From Candidatus Woesearchaeota archaeon (GTDB lineage Archaea; Nanobdellota; Nanobdellia; SCGC-AAA011-G17; JACPIM01): DNA of 33,530 bases. Location: assembly GCA_016188045.1 (NCBI GenBank), contig JACPIM010000004.1, forward strand, positions 72,493-106,022, read 5' to 3'. A model generated the notes under the pieces. The model had not been told where the DNA came from, made no database searches, and was given only the letters and a program-made list of their open reading frames with translations. Every line of letters begins with the position of its first letter. Positions within the stretch are counted from its first letter, which is position 1. A program made the position numbers and the translations under genes. This document shows, piece by piece, positions 5,934 to 21,926 of this stretch.

Positions 5934-6057
5934 GATTAATTCTCTTAATTTATAATTTTATTATATGTTACAGGTTATATTTAAACATTATCCCATTATA
6001 AAATATATTTTTAAGAATACAAATACATATTTATTTTGGTGCCAAAGCCTTATAACG

Positions 6058-7359
6058 ATGAAAAAAGACAGTTTTGAGCCTGGTGATCTAATTCAAGTAA
6101 CTACCTTAAGTGAAGAAATTAAAGGAACATTTTTACCTTCTAATAATAAAGAAATGCTATCATTAAAATTGCCTTCTGGTTATAATCTTTCTATAAAAAA
6201 ATCAGAGATAAAAGCAATAAAAATACTGGAAAAGCACATTCCTAAAATAGAAAAAACAACAGAAACAAAAATCAGAAAAGAATTGCCAACGATTATTATA
6301 CTTCATACTGGCGGGACAATTAGTAGCAAAGTTTCCTACAAAACAGGAGCAGTTTCAGCACAATTTTTACCTCAAGACATAATAAATAAGTTTCCAAAAT
6401 TAAAAGAAATTGCAAACATAGAATCAAGATTAATCTCAAATATGTTCTCAGAAAACATTCGTTTCCATCACTATAATCTAATGGCAAAAGAAATAGAAAA
6501 AGAAATCAATTCTAAAGTTGATGGAATAATTTTAACTCATGGAACAGATACCTTACATTATACGGCAGCAGCATTATCTTTCATCTTAGAAGATCTACCA
6601 ATTCCAGTTATTTTAGTTGGCTCACAAAGATCTTCAGACAGGCCATCTTCAGATGCTTCTTTAAATTTAATTTCTTCTGCTCGTTTTATAAAAGAAACAG
6701 ATTTCGCAGGTGTTGCAATTTGTATGCATCAATCCATTGAAGATAAAAATGCAGTTATTTTACCAGCATGTAAAACTAGAAAAGTACATACATCAAGGAG
6801 AGATGCATTCAAGCCAATAAACTCTTCCCCGATAGCTATAATTTCAGAAAAAATAGAATTTTTAACAAAAGATTATTCAAAAAAAGAAAATAAAAAATTA
6901 AAGTTAAAGACAATAAAAGAAAAGCTAAAAATTGGAATTCTAAAAGCCCATCCAAATATGTTATCTAGAGAAATTGAAAATTACAACTCTTTTGATGCAT
7001 TAATAATTGAAGGCACAGGTCTAGGGCATATCGCAGTAGAAAAAATAGATTCAGAATCCTCTGAAAATGAAAAAATACTAAATTCAATAAAAAAACTATC
7101 CAAAAAAATGCCGATAATAATGACATCTCAATGTATTTTTGGCAGAATTAATATGGACGTTTATTCTCCAGGAAGGAAATTACAAGAAGCAGGAGTTATT
7201 AACAACAATTCAGACATTACAACAGAAACAGCTTTCATAAAAGCCGCATGGTTATTAAGCAACCATAAAAAAGAGTTTTATGAACTCTGGAATAAGGATC
7301 TAAGAGGAGAAATTAATAATAGACTTCTGCCAGAACATTACCTAGATGATACCAATTAA
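6058..7359 (+). CDS. gatD: Glu-tRNA(Gln) amidotransferase subunit D
   Basis: GatD is the asparaginase-like subunit of the archaeal GatDE complex. It hydrolyses an amide donor and passes ammonia to GatE, which converts Glu-tRNA(Gln) to Gln-tRNA(Gln). The N-terminal beta-rich domain (about residues 5-55, FEPGDLIQVTTLSEEIKG) is the GatD-specific module. The asparaginase domain has ILHTGGTISSK with the nucleophilic Thr, LTHGTDTLHYTAAALSF with the second Thr-Asp pair, and VGSQRSSDRPSSDASLNL. I chose the ATG at 6058 because the protein then starts MKKDSFEPGD as in relatives; a longer frame from 5965 adds an unmatched hydrophobic stretch. The length is then 433 residues, usual for GatD. The partner gatE lies 0.7 kb downstream on the same strand. 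A damaged DUF504 gene overlaps its 3' end. Confidence 0.95.
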   Translation: MKKDSFEPGDLIQVTTLSEEIKGTFLPSNNKEMLSLKLPSGYNLSIKKSEIKAIKILEKHIPKIEKTTETKIRKELPTIIILHTGGTISSKVSYKTGAVSAQFLPQDIINKFPKLKEIANIESRLISNMFSENIRFHHYNLMAKEIEKEINSKVDGIILTHGTDTLHYTAAALSFILEDLPIPVILVGSQRSSDRPSSDASLNLISSARFIKETDFAGVAICMHQSIEDKNAVILPACKTRKVHTSRRDAFKPINSSPIAIISEKIEFLTKDYSKKENKKLKLKTIKEKLKIGILKAHPNMLSREIENYNSFDALIIEGTGLGHIAVEKIDSESSENEKILNSIKKLSKKMPIIMTSQCIFGRINMDVYSPGRKLQEAGVINNNSDITTETAFIKAAWLLSNHKKEFYELWNKDLRGEINNRLLPEHYLDDTN

Positions 7360-8043: not shown

Positions 8044-9456
8044 ATGTTAGATTACAAAAAACTTGGTTTTATGTGTGGTTTGGAAGTTCACTACCAGCTA
8101 TCTACTAGAAAATTATTCTGCCACTGCCCCAATCTAGTTCATGATTCTAACTCAATTTCATACAAAATTCAGAGAAACTTAATGGCTTTTGAGGGAGAAT
8201 CAGGAAAAAAAGACATAGCGGCCGAATATGAAGAATCTAAAAATAAAACTTTTATTTATGAAGGTTCTAATTCAAGTTCTTGTCTAGTTGAACTAGACGA
8301 ATCGCCACCTTTCCCAATAGACCAAGGAGCATTAAAAACATCAATACAAGTAGCCATGCTTCTTAATATGAAAATAGTAAATGAAGTTATTGTTATGAGA
8401 AAAATAGTAATAGATGGTTCCAATGTTTCAGGTTATCAAAGAACAACCCTAATAGGCAGAGACGGTTTTTTAGAAACTTCAAAAGGAAAAGTAAAAATCC
8501 CAACTTTATATCTAGAAGAAGATGCAGCCCAAAAAACAAGTAAAACGAAAGACACAGTAACTTACAACTTATCGAGATTAGGAATTCCTTTACTAGAAAT
8601 AGCTACTTCTCCGGATTTACAAGATCCAGAACACGCAAAAGAAACAGCCTATTTGATAGGAATGGTTGTAAAGAGCACAGGAAAAGCTCATCGAGGAATA
8701 GGTTCTATAAGGCAAGATGTTAATATTTCAATTAAAAATCATTCAAGAATAGAATTAAAAGGCTTCCAAGACTTAAGGTCTATCCCGAAAGTAATAGACT
8801 ATGAAATCCTAAGGCAATTAAAAGAAAAAAATGAATCATCACATGTAAGAAAAGTTGAACCTAATTTAACAACTTCATATTTAAGGCCAATGCCCGGCTC
8901 ATCTAGGTTATACCCAGAAACAGATTTAAAAACAATACAGATTTCTAAAGAATTTTTAAAAACAATTGAAATCCCGGAATTATTAACTGAAAGAGCCTTA
9001 AATTTTGAAAAAAAATATAATCTCCCTTCTGATCATGCTCGTGAAATAGTTTCAGAAAACATTCCTTTTGATTATTATGCAGAAAAATATAAAATAGAAC
9101 CAAAGATAATAGCTAACTTGTTAATTGAGGCACCAAAAGAAATATCTTCACGTTTTATAATAAAAAAACAACTAAAGCAAAAAGATTTTGAATTTGTTTT
9201 TGATAATTTAGAAAATAAAAAAATAAGCAGAGAGGCAGCATTTGAAGTTTTAAAAGACATTTCTCTAGACATAAAACCAAATTTATTAAAGTATCAAACA
9301 ATCTCTTTGGGAGAATTAGAAGCATTTATAAAAGATTTAGTAGAAAAAAACAAAGGAGTTTCTATTTCTGGTTTAATGGGAGACGTAATGAAAAGATATC
9401 GTGGCTCTGTTGATGGAAAATCGGCTATGGAATTACTAAAAAAATACGTTAGGTAA
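8044..9456 (+). CDS. gatE: Glu-tRNA(Gln) amidotransferase subunit E, lacking GAD domain
   Basis: GatE is the tRNA-binding, transamidating partner of GatD. The first domain is a GatB/GatE cradle: GFMCGLEVHYQLSTRKLFCHCP, then DESPPFPID, YLEEDAAQ and GIPLLEIATSPD, where GatE replaces several GatB residues. IGSIRQDVNISI and PGSSRLYPETDL are diagnostic GatE blocks. The C-terminal helical YqeY-like tail (about 340-470) ends with SISGLMGDVMKRYRGSVDGK. Typical GatE proteins have about 600-630 residues because an AspRS-like GAD domain of roughly 130-150 residues is inserted between the cradle and the RxYPETD block. Here ILRQLKEKNESSHVRKVEPN bridges directly to the YPETD block, so the insertion is missing and the protein has only 470 residues. 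The frame is intact. The start is supported by the TATA 25 bp upstream. Confidence 0.94.
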   Translation: MLDYKKLGFMCGLEVHYQLSTRKLFCHCPNLVHDSNSISYKIQRNLMAFEGESGKKDIAAEYEESKNKTFIYEGSNSSSCLVELDESPPFPIDQGALKTSIQVAMLLNMKIVNEVIVMRKIVIDGSNVSGYQRTTLIGRDGFLETSKGKVKIPTLYLEEDAAQKTSKTKDTVTYNLSRLGIPLLEIATSPDLQDPEHAKETAYLIGMVVKSTGKAHRGIGSIRQDVNISIKNHSRIELKGFQDLRSIPKVIDYEILRQLKEKNESSHVRKVEPNLTTSYLRPMPGSSRLYPETDLKTIQISKEFLKTIEIPELLTERALNFEKKYNLPSDHAREIVSENIPFDYYAEKYKIEPKIIANLLIEAPKEISSRFIIKKQLKQKDFEFVFDNLENKKISREAAFEVLKDISLDIKPNLLKYQTISLGELEAFIKDLVEKNKGVSISGLMGDVMKRYRGSVDGKSAMELLKKYVR

Positions 9457-10986: not shown

Positions 10987-12384
10987 ATGTCCCTAAAAAC
11001 ATCATATAGAACTAATGTATGTGGCGAATTAAATAAAGATTTTATAAAAAAAGAAGTAACACTTTGTGGTTGGGTTCATTCAATAAGATCTCATGGTAAA
11101 ATAACTTTCTTAGACTTAAGAGACCGTTATGGCCTGGTCCAAATCATTCTAAATCCAAAAAACCTTAAAGATATACCAGAAATAAAACTAGAATACATAT
11201 TAAAAATCAAAGGATTGGTTAAAGAAAGATTAAAAGGAACAGAAAACAAAGAGCTTCCAACAGGAGAAATAGAAATAGAAGCAAGAGAAATAGAAACAAT
11301 TTCAAAACCACAAGAGCAAATTCCAATAGAGATAGATGACAGAAAAGAAGCCTCTGAAAATTTGAGATTAAAATACAGATTCCTTGATCTAAGGAGACCA
11401 AAAATGCAGTATCATTTAAGTTTTAGGCAAAAAGTAATTAATTCCGCAAGAGAATATTTCACAAATAATAATTTCTTAGAAGTCGAAACACCGCTACTAG
11501 TCAAGCCAACACCAGAGGGCGCTCGTGACTATGTAGTTCCATCAAGAATAAATCCTGGAAAATTCTTTGCTTTGCCACAATCACCACAGCTATACAAACA
11601 GATCTTAATGATTTCTGGTTGTGATAAATATTTTCAAGTAGCTCGTTGTTTAAGAGATGAAGATTTAAGAGCAGATAGGCAACCAGAACATACTCAGTTT
11701 GATTTAGAAATGAGTTTCGTAACAAAAGAGGATATTATGGACTTTGTTGAAGGTTTGTACAAACACATTTTTAAAAAAGTTTTGAATATAGACCTTAAAC
11801 CGTTTCCAAGATTGACTTATGAAGAATCTATGAAAAAATATAAAACAGATAAGCCAGATTTAAGAAAGAATAAAGAAGATCCAAATGAATTTGCATTTTG
11901 TTGGGTAACTGATTTTCCGTTGTTTTCTTACAATAAAGACGAAAAAAAATGGGAGCCAGAACATCACATGTTCACTTCACCAAAAAAAGAACACATTAAA
12001 TATCTTGAATCAGATCCAGGAAAGGTATTAGGTGACTTATTTGATGTTGTCCTAAATGGAACAGAACTGGGCTCTGGCTCAATACGTATTAACAATCCAG
12101 AACTACAAGAAAAAGTCATGAAAGTTATAGGCATGAAAAAAGAAGAAGCATATAAAAAATTCGGTTTCTTATTGAACGCATATAAATACGGAAGTCCTTT
12201 TCATGGAGGTATGGGTTTGGGTGTAGATAGATTAGTGGCTTTAATGCTTGGCTTCAATGATATTCGAGAAGTAATTGCTTTCCCAAGAAACAAGTCAGCG
12301 GAAAATCCAATGGATGATTCACCATCTGAAATAGACCAAAAACAATTAAAAGAATTAAAAATTAAATTGGATTTAAATAAATAA
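10987..12384 (+). CDS. aspS: Aspartyl-tRNA synthetase, bacterial type, lacking GAD domain
   Basis: AspRS charges tRNA(Asp), and in GatCAB organisms usually also tRNA(Asn), with aspartate. The N-terminal OB fold reads YRTNVCGELNKDFIKKEVTL and DLRDRYGLVQIIL. Motif 2 is ARCLRDEDLRADRQPEHTQF and motif 3 is GGMGLGVDRLVALMLG. WVTDFPLF, the downstream HHMFTSP and the ending IREVIAFPRNKSAENPMDDSPS are bacterial-type features, not those of the archaeal/eukaryotic AspRS. Bacterial AspRS has about 590 residues because a GAD domain is inserted between motifs 2 and 3. Here DKPDLRKNKEDPNEFAFCWVT joins the flanks after only a few residues, giving 465 residues. The reading frame is intact, so this is a compact enzyme, not a broken one. 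TATA at about 10958 predicts a leaderless mRNA. The 3' end overlaps the convergent small gene by 23 bp. Confidence 0.95.
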   Translation: MSLKTSYRTNVCGELNKDFIKKEVTLCGWVHSIRSHGKITFLDLRDRYGLVQIILNPKNLKDIPEIKLEYILKIKGLVKERLKGTENKELPTGEIEIEAREIETISKPQEQIPIEIDDRKEASENLRLKYRFLDLRRPKMQYHLSFRQKVINSAREYFTNNNFLEVETPLLVKPTPEGARDYVVPSRINPGKFFALPQSPQLYKQILMISGCDKYFQVARCLRDEDLRADRQPEHTQFDLEMSFVTKEDIMDFVEGLYKHIFKKVLNIDLKPFPRLTYEESMKKYKTDKPDLRKNKEDPNEFAFCWVTDFPLFSYNKDEKKWEPEHHMFTSPKKEHIKYLESDPGKVLGDLFDVVLNGTELGSGSIRINNPELQEKVMKVIGMKKEEAYKKFGFLLNAYKYGSPFHGGMGLGVDRLVALMLGFNDIREVIAFPRNKSAENPMDDSPSEIDQKQLKELKIKLDLNK

Positions 12385-13886: not shown

Positions 13887-14171
13887 ATGGAAATAAATAA
13901 GGAACTCATACAAAAAGTAGTGAAAAATGCACGTTTAGAACTAACAGAACAAGAAATCAAAGAGTTTATACCGCAAATAAAGGAAGTCTTAAATGCTTTC
14001 TCAAAATTAAAAGAAGCATCATCTAATAACTTAGAACCAAGTTTTCAACCAATAGAAGTAAAAAACATAACAAGAGACGATAAGATTTCTTCTTGTTTAA
14101 CTCAAGACCAGGCATTACAAAATGCAGAGCATAAAAAAGAAGGTTTTTTTAAGGGACCAAAAACAATTTAG
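13887..14171 (+). CDS. gatC: Asp/Glu-tRNA amidotransferase subunit C
   Basis: GatC is the small belt-like subunit that wraps GatA and stabilises the GatA-GatB contact in GatCAB. The 94 residues start IQKVVKNARLELTEQEIKEF, the family's first helix. A linker LEPSFQPIEVKNITRDD follows, and the ending GFFKGPKTI corresponds to the usual 'FxVPxV' tail. It heads the cluster gatC - Rossmann protein - gatA, with 3 bp to the next gene and then a stop/start overlap, so all three are likely co-transcribed. In archaea that also have GatDE, GatCAB normally makes Asn-tRNA(Asn) from Asp-tRNA(Asn). Confidence 0.93.
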   Translation: MEINKELIQKVVKNARLELTEQEIKEFIPQIKEVLNAFSKLKEASSNNLEPSFQPIEVKNITRDDKISSCLTQDQALQNAEHKKEGFFKGPKTI

Positions 14172-14174
14172 AAA

Positions 14175-14675
14175 ATGAAAAAAATCTTAATAGCTGTTGT
14201 TGGTCATGGAGATAATGCTAAAAAAATTCATCTTAAAATGGCTTACAAATTAGGAAAAGAAATTGCTAAAAAAGACCATATACTCTTGTGTGGTGGAAGA
14301 ATAGAAGGTATAATGGGCGCGGCAATTAAGGGATGTAGTGATGCCGGGGGAATCAGTGTAGGCATATTACCAGATTCAGATTTAAGCAAAACAAGTAAAC
14401 ATCTAAAGATTCCTATTTTAACTGGTATGGGCTTTGCAAGAAACCAAATTATATCTCTCAGTTGTGATGGAATGATCGTTGTTGGAGGCGGTGTAGGCAC
14501 CTTAACAGAAGTAGCCTATGCCTATGCTTACGGAAAACCAATTGTTTTTATGAAAGATTCTGGTGGTCTAGTAGAACAATTTTCTAATAAATATATGGAT
14601 GAAAAAGAAAGAGTAAAAATCTTAGAGGCTTCAACGCCAGAAGAAGCAATTAATTTAATAAAAAACAGTAAATAA
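14175..14675 (+). CDS. TIGR00725/LOG-like Rossmann-fold nucleotide-binding protein
   Basis: The 166-residue protein resembles the lysine-decarboxylase-like/LOG group. VGHGDNAKK begins the fold. HILLCGGRIEGIMGAAIKGC corresponds to the family's glycine-rich phosphate loop, MGFARNQIISL to its Arg-containing helix, and VVGGGVGTLTEVAYAYAYGKP to the GGxGTxxE motif with the catalytic-type Glu. Better known relatives release cytokinin-like bases from nucleotide monophosphates; the role in archaea is not established. It sits between gatC and gatA. Its stop overlaps the gatA start (TAATG), so translation is probably coupled. Whether it has anything to do with amidotransferase function is unknown. Confidence 0.85.
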   Translation: MKKILIAVVGHGDNAKKIHLKMAYKLGKEIAKKDHILLCGGRIEGIMGAAIKGCSDAGGISVGILPDSDLSKTSKHLKIPILTGMGFARNQIISLSCDGMIVVGGGVGTLTEVAYAYAYGKPIVFMKDSGGLVEQFSNKYMDEKERVKILEASTPEEAINLIKNSK

Positions 14676-16024
14676 TGGAAACAATCCAAAATTTTATAAA
14701 ACAAGTGCAAAAAAAAGAAATCAATATAGTAGAACACACACACAAGGTTTTGAAAGAAATTAAAAAAATAAATAAAGAATACAATTATTTCATAAATATA
14801 ACAGAAGATTTAGCCTTAAATTCAGCAGAAAAAGTTAAAAAAAACCAAAATGGAAAATTATCAGGTTTATTTATTTCTGTAAAAGATGATATCTGTGTAA
14901 AAGACATAGAATGTACTTGTGGTTCTGAAATTCTTAAGACCTATAAACCGCCATTTAATGCTACAGTAATTGAAAAAATAATAAAAGAAGGGGCGATTAT
15001 TATTGGAAAAACATCTCAAGATGAATTTGGTTTCGGCTCTTTCTCAACAAATACAAAAACAATGCCTAAAAACCCATTTGATAAGTCAAGATCCTGCGGT
15101 GGTTCTTCAGGAGGCTCAGCAGGGATAACTCAAAAAATATCCTTTCCCCATTTATCATTAGCAGAATCGACAGGTGGTTCTATTGCAAATCCAGCTTCTT
15201 TCTGTGGTGTTACAGGATTAACACCGACTTATGGTTTAGTTTCAAGATATGGCTTGATAGATTATGCTTCATCTTTAGATAAAATAGGAGCAATGTCAAA
15301 AAATCCAGAAGATGCTTTTTATTTATTAGATATAATAAAGGGATTTGATCCTAGAGACCAAACATCTTTAAATAAAGAATTAAATAAACCTAAGAATAAA
15401 CTAAAAATAGCAATAATAAAAGAATCTTTAAACATAAATAAAGAAATAAAAGATTTAATCTTATCTAAAGTAAAAAACTATGATTTAATCTCCTTACCAA
15501 ATGTAGAAAAATATTCAATTCCAACTTATTATATCATAGCATTATCAGAAGCATCAACAAATTTAGCAAAATACACTGGCTTGAGATATGGCCAAACAGA
15601 ACCATTAAACAAAGAATATAATGAATTTTTCACAGAAGTAAGATCAAAATATTTCTCAAAAGAGTCTAAAAGAAGAATTATTTTAGGAACTTTTGCAAGA
15701 ATGGCGGGTTATAGGGAAGCATTTTACTTAAAAGCCATGAAAACTAGAACCCTGATAATAAATGAATATAAAAAAGCTTTTCAAAAATACGATATTCTAA
15801 TTTCTCCAACAATGCCTATCCTGCCGCCAAAATTCACAGAAATAAATAAATTAACTCCTTTGGAAAATTATATGATGGATATTCTAACAGTTGGCCCAAA
15901 TTTAGCAGGGCTTCCTCATATCTCTTTAAATTCTGGATTTATCAATAAATTGCCTATTGGTTTAATGGCAATTTCAGATCATTTAAATGAAAATAATTTA
16001 TTAGAATTTACTAAAACAATATAA
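14675..16024 (+). CDS. gatA: Asp/Glu-tRNA amidotransferase subunit A
   Basis: GatA is the amidase-signature subunit of GatCAB and releases ammonia from glutamine. The catalytic Ser-cisSer-Lys triad can be read: Lys at about 70 in FISVKDDICV, the cis-Ser in SRSCGGSSGGSAG (about 145) and the nucleophile Ser at about 169 in AESTGGSIANPASFCG. The GLTPTYGLVSRYGLIDYASSLD block is the amidase core. The C-terminal DILISPTMPILPPKF and the short GLPHISLNSG segment are typical. The 449 residues are slightly shorter than bacterial GatA (about 480), mostly through trimmed loops. The start codon overlaps the preceding stop. GatB, the third subunit, is encoded 4.5 kb downstream at 20556. Confidence 0.95.
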   Translation: METIQNFIKQVQKKEINIVEHTHKVLKEIKKINKEYNYFINITEDLALNSAEKVKKNQNGKLSGLFISVKDDICVKDIECTCGSEILKTYKPPFNATVIEKIIKEGAIIIGKTSQDEFGFGSFSTNTKTMPKNPFDKSRSCGGSSGGSAGITQKISFPHLSLAESTGGSIANPASFCGVTGLTPTYGLVSRYGLIDYASSLDKIGAMSKNPEDAFYLLDIIKGFDPRDQTSLNKELNKPKNKLKIAIIKESLNINKEIKDLILSKVKNYDLISLPNVEKYSIPTYYIIALSEASTNLAKYTGLRYGQTEPLNKEYNEFFTEVRSKYFSKESKRRIILGTFARMAGYREAFYLKAMKTRTLIINEYKKAFQKYDILISPTMPILPPKFTEINKLTPLENYMMDILTVGPNLAGLPHISLNSGFINKLPIGLMAISDHLNENNLLEFTKTI

Positions 16025-20555: not shown

Positions 20556-21926
20556 ATGAAAATAATGATAGGGCTAGAATCACATGTACAACTAGAAAAC
20601 TGTAAAACCAAACTATTTTGTTCTTGCCCAACCTCTGGTTCAGAAATACCAAACACAAGAACTTGCCCTACTTGTTTAGGATTACCTGGTTCTAAACCCT
20701 CATTAAATAAAGAAGCATTAACAGAAGCATTAAAAGTAGCTTTATCATTAAATTGTAAAATAAATTCTTCATTCTTTTTCTCAAGAAAAACATATTTTTA
20801 TAATGATTTGCCAAATAGCTACCAAATAACACAATACGAATTACCGTTATCAGTAAATGGCAAATTAAACAATATAAGAATAAGAAGAATTCATTTAGAA
20901 GAAGACCCTGGAAAATTAATCCATGAAAATAATTACACTTTAATAGATTACAACAGGTCAGGAACACCCCTAATAGAAATAGTAACAGAACCAGACTTTA
21001 CTTCCTTAGAGCAAGTAAGATCTTTCTTGCAAAAATTAACAATTATTTTAGAATATTTAGGAGTTTATACTAGAAAATCAGAGGCATCCTTAAGAACTGA
21101 CGCAAATATTAGTATAGATAATAATCCCAGAGTTGAAATAAAAAACATCACAGGAATAATCGAATTAATCAAAGCACTAGAATATGAAATACAAAGACAA
21201 GTAAAAATAATAAACTCAAAAGAGAAATTAGAGCAACATACAAGAATGTGGGATCCAACAACAAAAACAACAACTTCAGTAAGAACAAAAGAAACTGAAG
21301 AAGATTACGGTTACATCATAGAACCAAATTTAACAAAAATAGAGCTAACAGAAAAACAAATAGAAGAAATAAAGTCTTCTTTGCCAGAACTAGCAGAAGA
21401 AAAAACAAAACGCTTCATTAAACAATATAAAATGAAAGAAGATGACGCAAAGATAATAACCTCAGATTTAACTCTGGCAAACCTCTTTGAAAAGGTAGCA
21501 AAAAAAATAGACCATAAATTAACTACCAGGTGGTTTGTCCGCGAAATACCGAGAATTTTAAATTATAATAAAATAACTTTAGAAGAATGGAAAATAACAG
21601 AGAAGGAATTAACAGAATTATTAGATTTATTAGAAAACAATAAAATAACAGAAACAACCGCCCAAAAAATATTAGAAGAACTATCAAAAAAAATATTCTC
21701 ACCTGAAGAATATGTTAAAAAACAAAATTTAGAATTGTTATCAAGTTCATCAGATATAAAAAAATTGTGTGATGAGGCAATAAGAGAAAATCCTAAAGCA
21801 GTTCAGGATTATAAATCTGGAAATAAAATAGCACTAAACTTTATTTTCGGCCAGGTTATGAAAAAAACAAAAGGAACCGCAGATCCATATAAAGTAAAAG
21901 AAATTTTAAGCAGGAAATTGAGCTAA
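20556..21926 (+). CDS. gatB: Asp/Glu-tRNA amidotransferase subunit B
   Basis: GatB binds the mischarged tRNA and transfers ammonia to it. The cradle domain starts IMIGLESHVQLENCKTKLFC. The zinc site is complete: CSCPTSG and CPTCLGLPGSKPSLN. KTYFYNDLPNSYQITQYELPL, RIHLEEDPGKL and YNRSGTPLIEIVTEPDF are conserved GatB blocks, with the last three forming the active site. The C-terminal helical YqeY domain (about 310-456) reads KIALNFIFGQVMKKTKGTADP. The absence of the GatE-specific YPETD block separates it from the gatE product at 8044. The 456 residues are near the normal GatB size. It stands 4.5 kb from gatCA with its own TATA (about 20524-20535), so the subunits are made from separate transcripts. 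Confidence 0.95.
   Translation: MKIMIGLESHVQLENCKTKLFCSCPTSGSEIPNTRTCPTCLGLPGSKPSLNKEALTEALKVALSLNCKINSSFFFSRKTYFYNDLPNSYQITQYELPLSVNGKLNNIRIRRIHLEEDPGKLIHENNYTLIDYNRSGTPLIEIVTEPDFTSLEQVRSFLQKLTIILEYLGVYTRKSEASLRTDANISIDNNPRVEIKNITGIIELIKALEYEIQRQVKIINSKEKLEQHTRMWDPTTKTTTSVRTKETEEDYGYIIEPNLTKIELTEKQIEEIKSSLPELAEEKTKRFIKQYKMKEDDAKIITSDLTLANLFEKVAKKIDHKLTTRWFVREIPRILNYNKITLEEWKITEKELTELLDLLENNKITETTAQKILEELSKKIFSPEEYVKKQNLELLSSSSDIKKLCDEAIRENPKAVQDYKSGNKIALNFIFGQVMKKTKGTADPYKVKEILSRKLS

Follow-up and report, generated by a model that had tools for sequence, protein, structure and literature searches.

The GatE encoded in this 33,530-nucleotide stretch of a Candidatus Woesearchaeota genome (hereafter the window) lacks the GAD domain, and this loss is real, clean and shared by most of a large clade of GatEs; it is not a coupled event with the absence of the same domain from the AspRS of the window. 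We consider it likely that the protein functions as an archaeal GatE, that GAD, an accessory domain here, was cleanly removed from it at the insertion seam, that the window inherited this state, which a large clade shares, and that the AspRS loss was separate and probably later. One region of the window holds gatD, gatE, aspS, gatC, gatA and gatB (Table 1).

Table 1. Position of the amidotransferase and aspS features within the window
Feature	Position	Strand	Basis
gatD, partner subunit of GatE	5965..7359	+	NF003217 444.2 bits, cut-off 310
gatE residues 1-257, the catalytic (cradle) part at the N-terminus	8044..8814	+	TIGR00134 1-260, 2D6F_C 1-258, high-confidence model
gatE seam, residues 258-267: short linker replacing about 130 GAD residues of GAD-containing relatives	8815..8844	+	alignments, DNA
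gatE cradle end (YPETD block), helical and YqeY-like tail domains, stop	8845..9456	+	2D6F_C 396-614, PF02637 26.1 bits, structural matches to GatE/GatB
aspS, bacterial-type, without GAD	10987..12384	+	TIGR00459 613.4 bits; nested among GAD-containing AspRSs
aspS seam, residues 294-300: site of GAD (110-135 residues) in GAD-containing relatives	11866..11886	+	alignments
gatC	13887..14171	+	TIGR00135 78 bits, cut-off 47.1
gatA	14675..16024	+	TIGR00132 442.8 bits, under cut-off 481.1
gatB, distinct from gatE	20556..21926	+	TIGR00133 507.3 bits, cut-off 314.8

The initial annotation had described a GatE of 470 residues without GAD, its flanks joined directly, and the family models, the Pfam search and the alignment to a solved structure all confirm this. 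The 470-aa product of the ORF at 8044-9456 exceeds the cut-offs of the GatE models NF003107 (493.2 bits, cut-off 456) and TIGR00134 gatE_arch (455.4 bits, cut-off 319.55) and remains below those of both GatB models (153.2 vs 338 and 139.7 vs 314.8 bits). A Pfam search of the protein returned GatB_N, GatB_Yqey at 26.1 bits, just below its cut-off of 27, and no GAD. Residues 1-258 and 396-614 of the solved GatE 2D6F_C are aligned and about 137 residues (259-395) are skipped, and in the genome-wide search TIGR00134 is covered from 1 to 260 and from 401 to 619, with 261-400 absent. The seam reads ...EILRQLK-EKNESS-HVRKVE..., a short linker ahead of the YPETD block, and the catalytic part keeps many invariant residues in common with GAD-containing GatEs. 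Nor is the domain encoded separately, which the initial annotation had named as speaking against its reading, since PF02938 (GAD) gave no match at E<=10 across the whole of the source assembly (24 contigs, rated 92.55% complete).

The structure prediction suggested in the initial annotation yielded an intact GatE/GatB fold without GAD (pLDDT 91.2, pTM 0.82), most of the length of which is matched by solved proteins, the best being 1ZQ1_C (Z 34.1, 361 aligned residues, rmsd 2.8), followed by 2D6F_D (Z 33.4) and then by GatB chains (Z 27-30). The window protein thus has the cradle, helical and tail domains of the archaeal GatE of GatDE (2D6F, 1ZQ1), with gatD in the same cluster, but measures about 470 aa without GAD instead of about 620 aa with it. 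Its GAD-less outline and overall fold resemble those of the GatB of GatCAB; however, it fails the GatB cut-offs and the window carries a separate true gatB. GatD_N starts at residue 37 of the gatD ORF, and the true start of the gene probably lies inside the frame. Together, GatD and the GAD-less GatE would convert Glu-tRNA(Gln) to Gln-tRNA(Gln), with the retained cradle carrying out catalysis and acceptor-end reading and the helical and tail domains probably reading the D-arm and outer corner of the tRNA. The initial annotation had assigned a contact with the D-loop or elbow of tRNA(Gln) to GAD. According to a review, GatDE reads the D-loop and A1:U72 (PMC9499178). In a docking model of the homologous GatB, U1-A72 is bound by the cradle, and the D-loop falls to the helical and YqeY domains (PMC4027206), both of which the window GatE retains; by homology, a GAD-less GatE may keep both contacts. 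GAD would be an accessory module here, since the domains that would serve catalysis and tRNA reading are retained.

Among 279 genomes of the phylum, GatE contains GAD in 118 and lacks it in 140, while 17 had no GatE found and in four the gene is split or cut. The absence of the domain from 140 of the 258 genomes with a clear GatE means that GAD is not a dependable defining feature of the family, although both solved GatE structures contain it, and the window protein counts as a variant within the family. Bacterial-type AspRS has GAD in 136 of the same 279 genomes, lacks it in 35 and is unclear in one. The E-value was the basis for calling the domain absent in about 86 of those 140 GatEs and in about 20 of the 35 AspRSs, and independent GAD counts agree. 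The insertion site is two-state in both proteins, with 0-4 residues in 93 and 124-148 residues in 74 of 167 aligned GatEs, and 0-2 or 110-135 residues in bacterial-type AspRS. Of 81 families, 79 show a single GatE state and two (f13 and f56) are mixed. The named database matches closest to the window GatE are titled Woesearchaeota; GAD-less GatEs also occur in records titled Pacearchaeota, and GAD-containing ones in records titled Methanothermococcus, Altiarchaeales, Methanosarcinales, Alkanophaga, Diapherotrites and Nanohaloarchaea. We found no description of a GAD-less GatE in the portions of the literature that were searched. This natural deletion series, lying beside close GAD-containing relatives, offers a direct way of testing what GAD does in GatDE.

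In all but three of the 279 genomes, GAD matches sit where GatE and AspRS predict them, the exceptions being a GatE truncated at the edge of a contig and two genomes in which GatE is split just before GAD. The latter belong to one family of small genomes (G121 and G270) where GatE is made of two genes; in one locus (L284, 1435-2586) GAD and the C-terminal domains form a single ORF of 383 aa, and in the other (L285) a 393-aa frame holds the GAD match. With PF02938 at 1e-4, seven genomes with a GAD-containing GatE gave no match, from which it follows that the domain model misses some GADs.

The history of GatE was examined on an alignment and tree of 167 rows (excluding five repeat loci, rows shorter than 440 aa, identical rows and L013) and on a more careful tree of 90 rows hand-chosen from these. 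The root was placed on four GAD-containing methanogen/Alkanophaga rows, and the distinction between loss and gain depends on this choice. Rooted so, the GAD-less GatEs are surrounded by GAD-containing ones. The window GatE falls in a clade of 48 rows, 43 GAD-less and five with GAD, whose support of 89/99 is not starred and whose bootstrap is unsettled, and a second GAD-less clade of five rows stands apart (100/99). The state requires at least four changes on the 90-row tree, and four on the 167-row tree as well, counts which do not show direction; the grouping of every GAD-less GatE in one clade is rejected (AU p=6.7e-5). Given the five GAD-containing rows inside the mainly GAD-less clade, the history of GatE has not been one simple loss. 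One could argue that a GAD-less GatE is the primitive state, predating the GAD insertion, as the homologous GatB of the window also has no GAD by Pfam; however, the GAD-containing GatEs of the archaeal records named above fall outside the GAD-less clades, and we regard this as extremely improbable.

At 465 aa, the AspRS of the window scores above the cut-offs of the bacterial models TIGR00459 (373.85) and NF001750 and below that of the archaeal-type model TIGR00458 (238.1 bits, cut-off 368.4), so that, as first annotated, it is a GAD-less member of a kind that normally bears the domain. It skips positions 293-420 of TIGR00459, and a Pfam search of the protein found no GAD. Thus it differs from other bacterial-type AspRSs in lacking GAD, and from the archaeal type, which it resembles in this respect, in failing the archaeal model. 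One survey used GAD to recognise bacterial-type AspRS (PMC4206432), a marker that the GAD-less enzymes show to be unsafe. A genome elsewhere in the sample (G239) has two bacterial-type AspRS genes, with GAD in each. No AsnRS was found above the TIGR00457 cut-off in the source assembly, itself incomplete, and a second match to this model (contig C17) looks like a LysRS. Since no AsnRS exceeds the cut-off, Asn-tRNA is probably made by AspRS together with GatCAB, with the reservation that the assembly is incomplete; the AspRS would probably be non-discriminating and feed GatCAB. The archaeal Asn-transamidosome has been reported to be without GAD and to release Asn-tRNA more slowly (PMC9499178, citing Suzuki 2015).

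On a quick AspRS tree, from which L050 and L182 were excluded as fragments, the window AspRS belongs to a starred set of 17 rows together with 16 GAD-containing rows, and is 66% identical to a GAD-containing AspRS, whereas the majority of the remaining GAD-less AspRSs cluster together elsewhere. Because GatE sits in a mostly GAD-less clade and AspRS among GAD-containing AspRSs, the GatE loss looks older and inherited, and the AspRS loss looks separate and its own. In this scenario the window would have inherited a GatE state common to a large clade, and its AspRS would have lost GAD separately, probably later, giving a bacterial-type enzyme with a GAD-less, archaeal-like outline. A single AspRS loss was also considered: on the quick tree, placing the 24 GAD-less bacterial-type rows together in one clade is rejected by a narrow margin only (p=0.047).

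The initial annotation had read the two absences as parallel losses, and one cause stripping GAD from GatE and AspRS together would account for the lack of the domain in both proteins of this genome. It would also agree with the order to which the genome belongs, where all three genomes with a GAD-containing GatE have a GAD-containing AspRS and all 10 with a GAD-less bacterial-type AspRS have a GAD-less GatE. This order comprises 41 genomes. In 38 of them a GatE passes the cut-off (35 without GAD and three with it), while AspRS is bacterial-type with GAD in 15 and without it in 10 (G015 as a fragment only), the remainder being nine archaeal-like below the bacterial cut-off, one fragment and six with no hit at 1e-50. 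Phylum-wide, however, the coupling does not hold. The cross-table, which sets apart the 17 genomes without GatE, the four with a split or cut gene (G146 by family analogy) and one AspRS fragment, leaves 159 genomes in which GatE is clear and AspRS is bacterial-type; the latter has GAD in 69 and lacks it in 14 of the 83 with a GAD-containing GatE, and has it in 56 and lacks it in 20 of the 76 with a GAD-less GatE (Fisher p=0.18, odds ratio 1.76, before any correction for relatedness). The combination named beforehand as speaking against parallel loss, a GAD-containing GatE with a GAD-less AspRS, therefore occurs in 14 of the 279 genomes, and its reverse in 56. The AspRS state needs 10 changes on the GatE tree, and across nine independent pairs differing in it, GatE differs in 0.5 on average and is the same in 8.5. 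With the two losses moreover lying at different depths, a common cause is highly improbable, and the co-absence in the window looks like a coincidence of lineage and not one event.

Hopping of GAD from AspRS to GatE was also considered. The GatE-type and AspRS-type GADs form two separate groups (support 99, starred; 115 columns, which is few), and thus there was no recent exchange between the families. One locus (L001, genome G030) is a lone GAD-containing GatE that in its flanks most resembles GAD-less GatEs (66% and 62%), while its GAD, of the GatE type, shares no more than about 46% identity with any other. It is conceivable, if rather unlikely, that in tRNA-dependent amidation GAD acts as a plug-in timing module which DPANN archaea remove and restore at the same seam, doing so independently in the Gln (GatE) and Asn (AspRS) pathways, and that L001 would be a re-insertion by recombination.

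Two causes had been offered for the losses. In favour of general genome reduction, counting each genome singly gives a smaller median size with a GAD-less than with a GAD-containing GatE (0.9 vs 1.1 Mb, p=2e-5); however, significance is lost when families are counted (1.0 vs 1.1 Mb, p=0.13), a large family of small genomes (f60) that is uniformly GAD-less weighing heavily, and the size ranges cross, with GAD-less GatEs in genomes of up to 2.1 Mb and a GAD-containing one at 0.5 Mb. Any effect is at most weak, and we think it unlikely that reduction drove the loss of GAD.

The other proposal, a tRNA change that made GAD dispensable, found no support in the D-arm of tRNA-Gln. The source genome has a tRNA-Gln(UUG) gene (G000:C24:50286-50409) with, as read by eye, A1-U72, A73 and introns in the anticodon loop and the T-loop. 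This extra T-loop intron could be seen as such a change, though introns are removed before use. In a comparison of the 5' half only, with one match per genome and a search pattern that itself fixed part of the sequence, 99 genomes were matched and four with an unclear GatE dropped; in the remaining 95, the stretch between A1 and base 37 measures 38 nt in 42 of 43 with a GAD-containing and 51 of 52 with a GAD-less GatE, and the near-identical D-loop reads AGTGGYCAA in 29 of 43 and 48 of 52, respectively. With D-arms so alike, partly fixed as they are by the pattern, this explanation is very doubtful. Only 14 tRNAs were recovered from the source genome at E<=0.001 with a standard model, and several of its tRNA genes (L103, L308, L310, L098 and L096; identities by eye) are interrupted by introns at sites other than the anticodon loop, namely the T-arm or T-loop for Gln, Lys, Ala and Gly and the D-loop for Thr.
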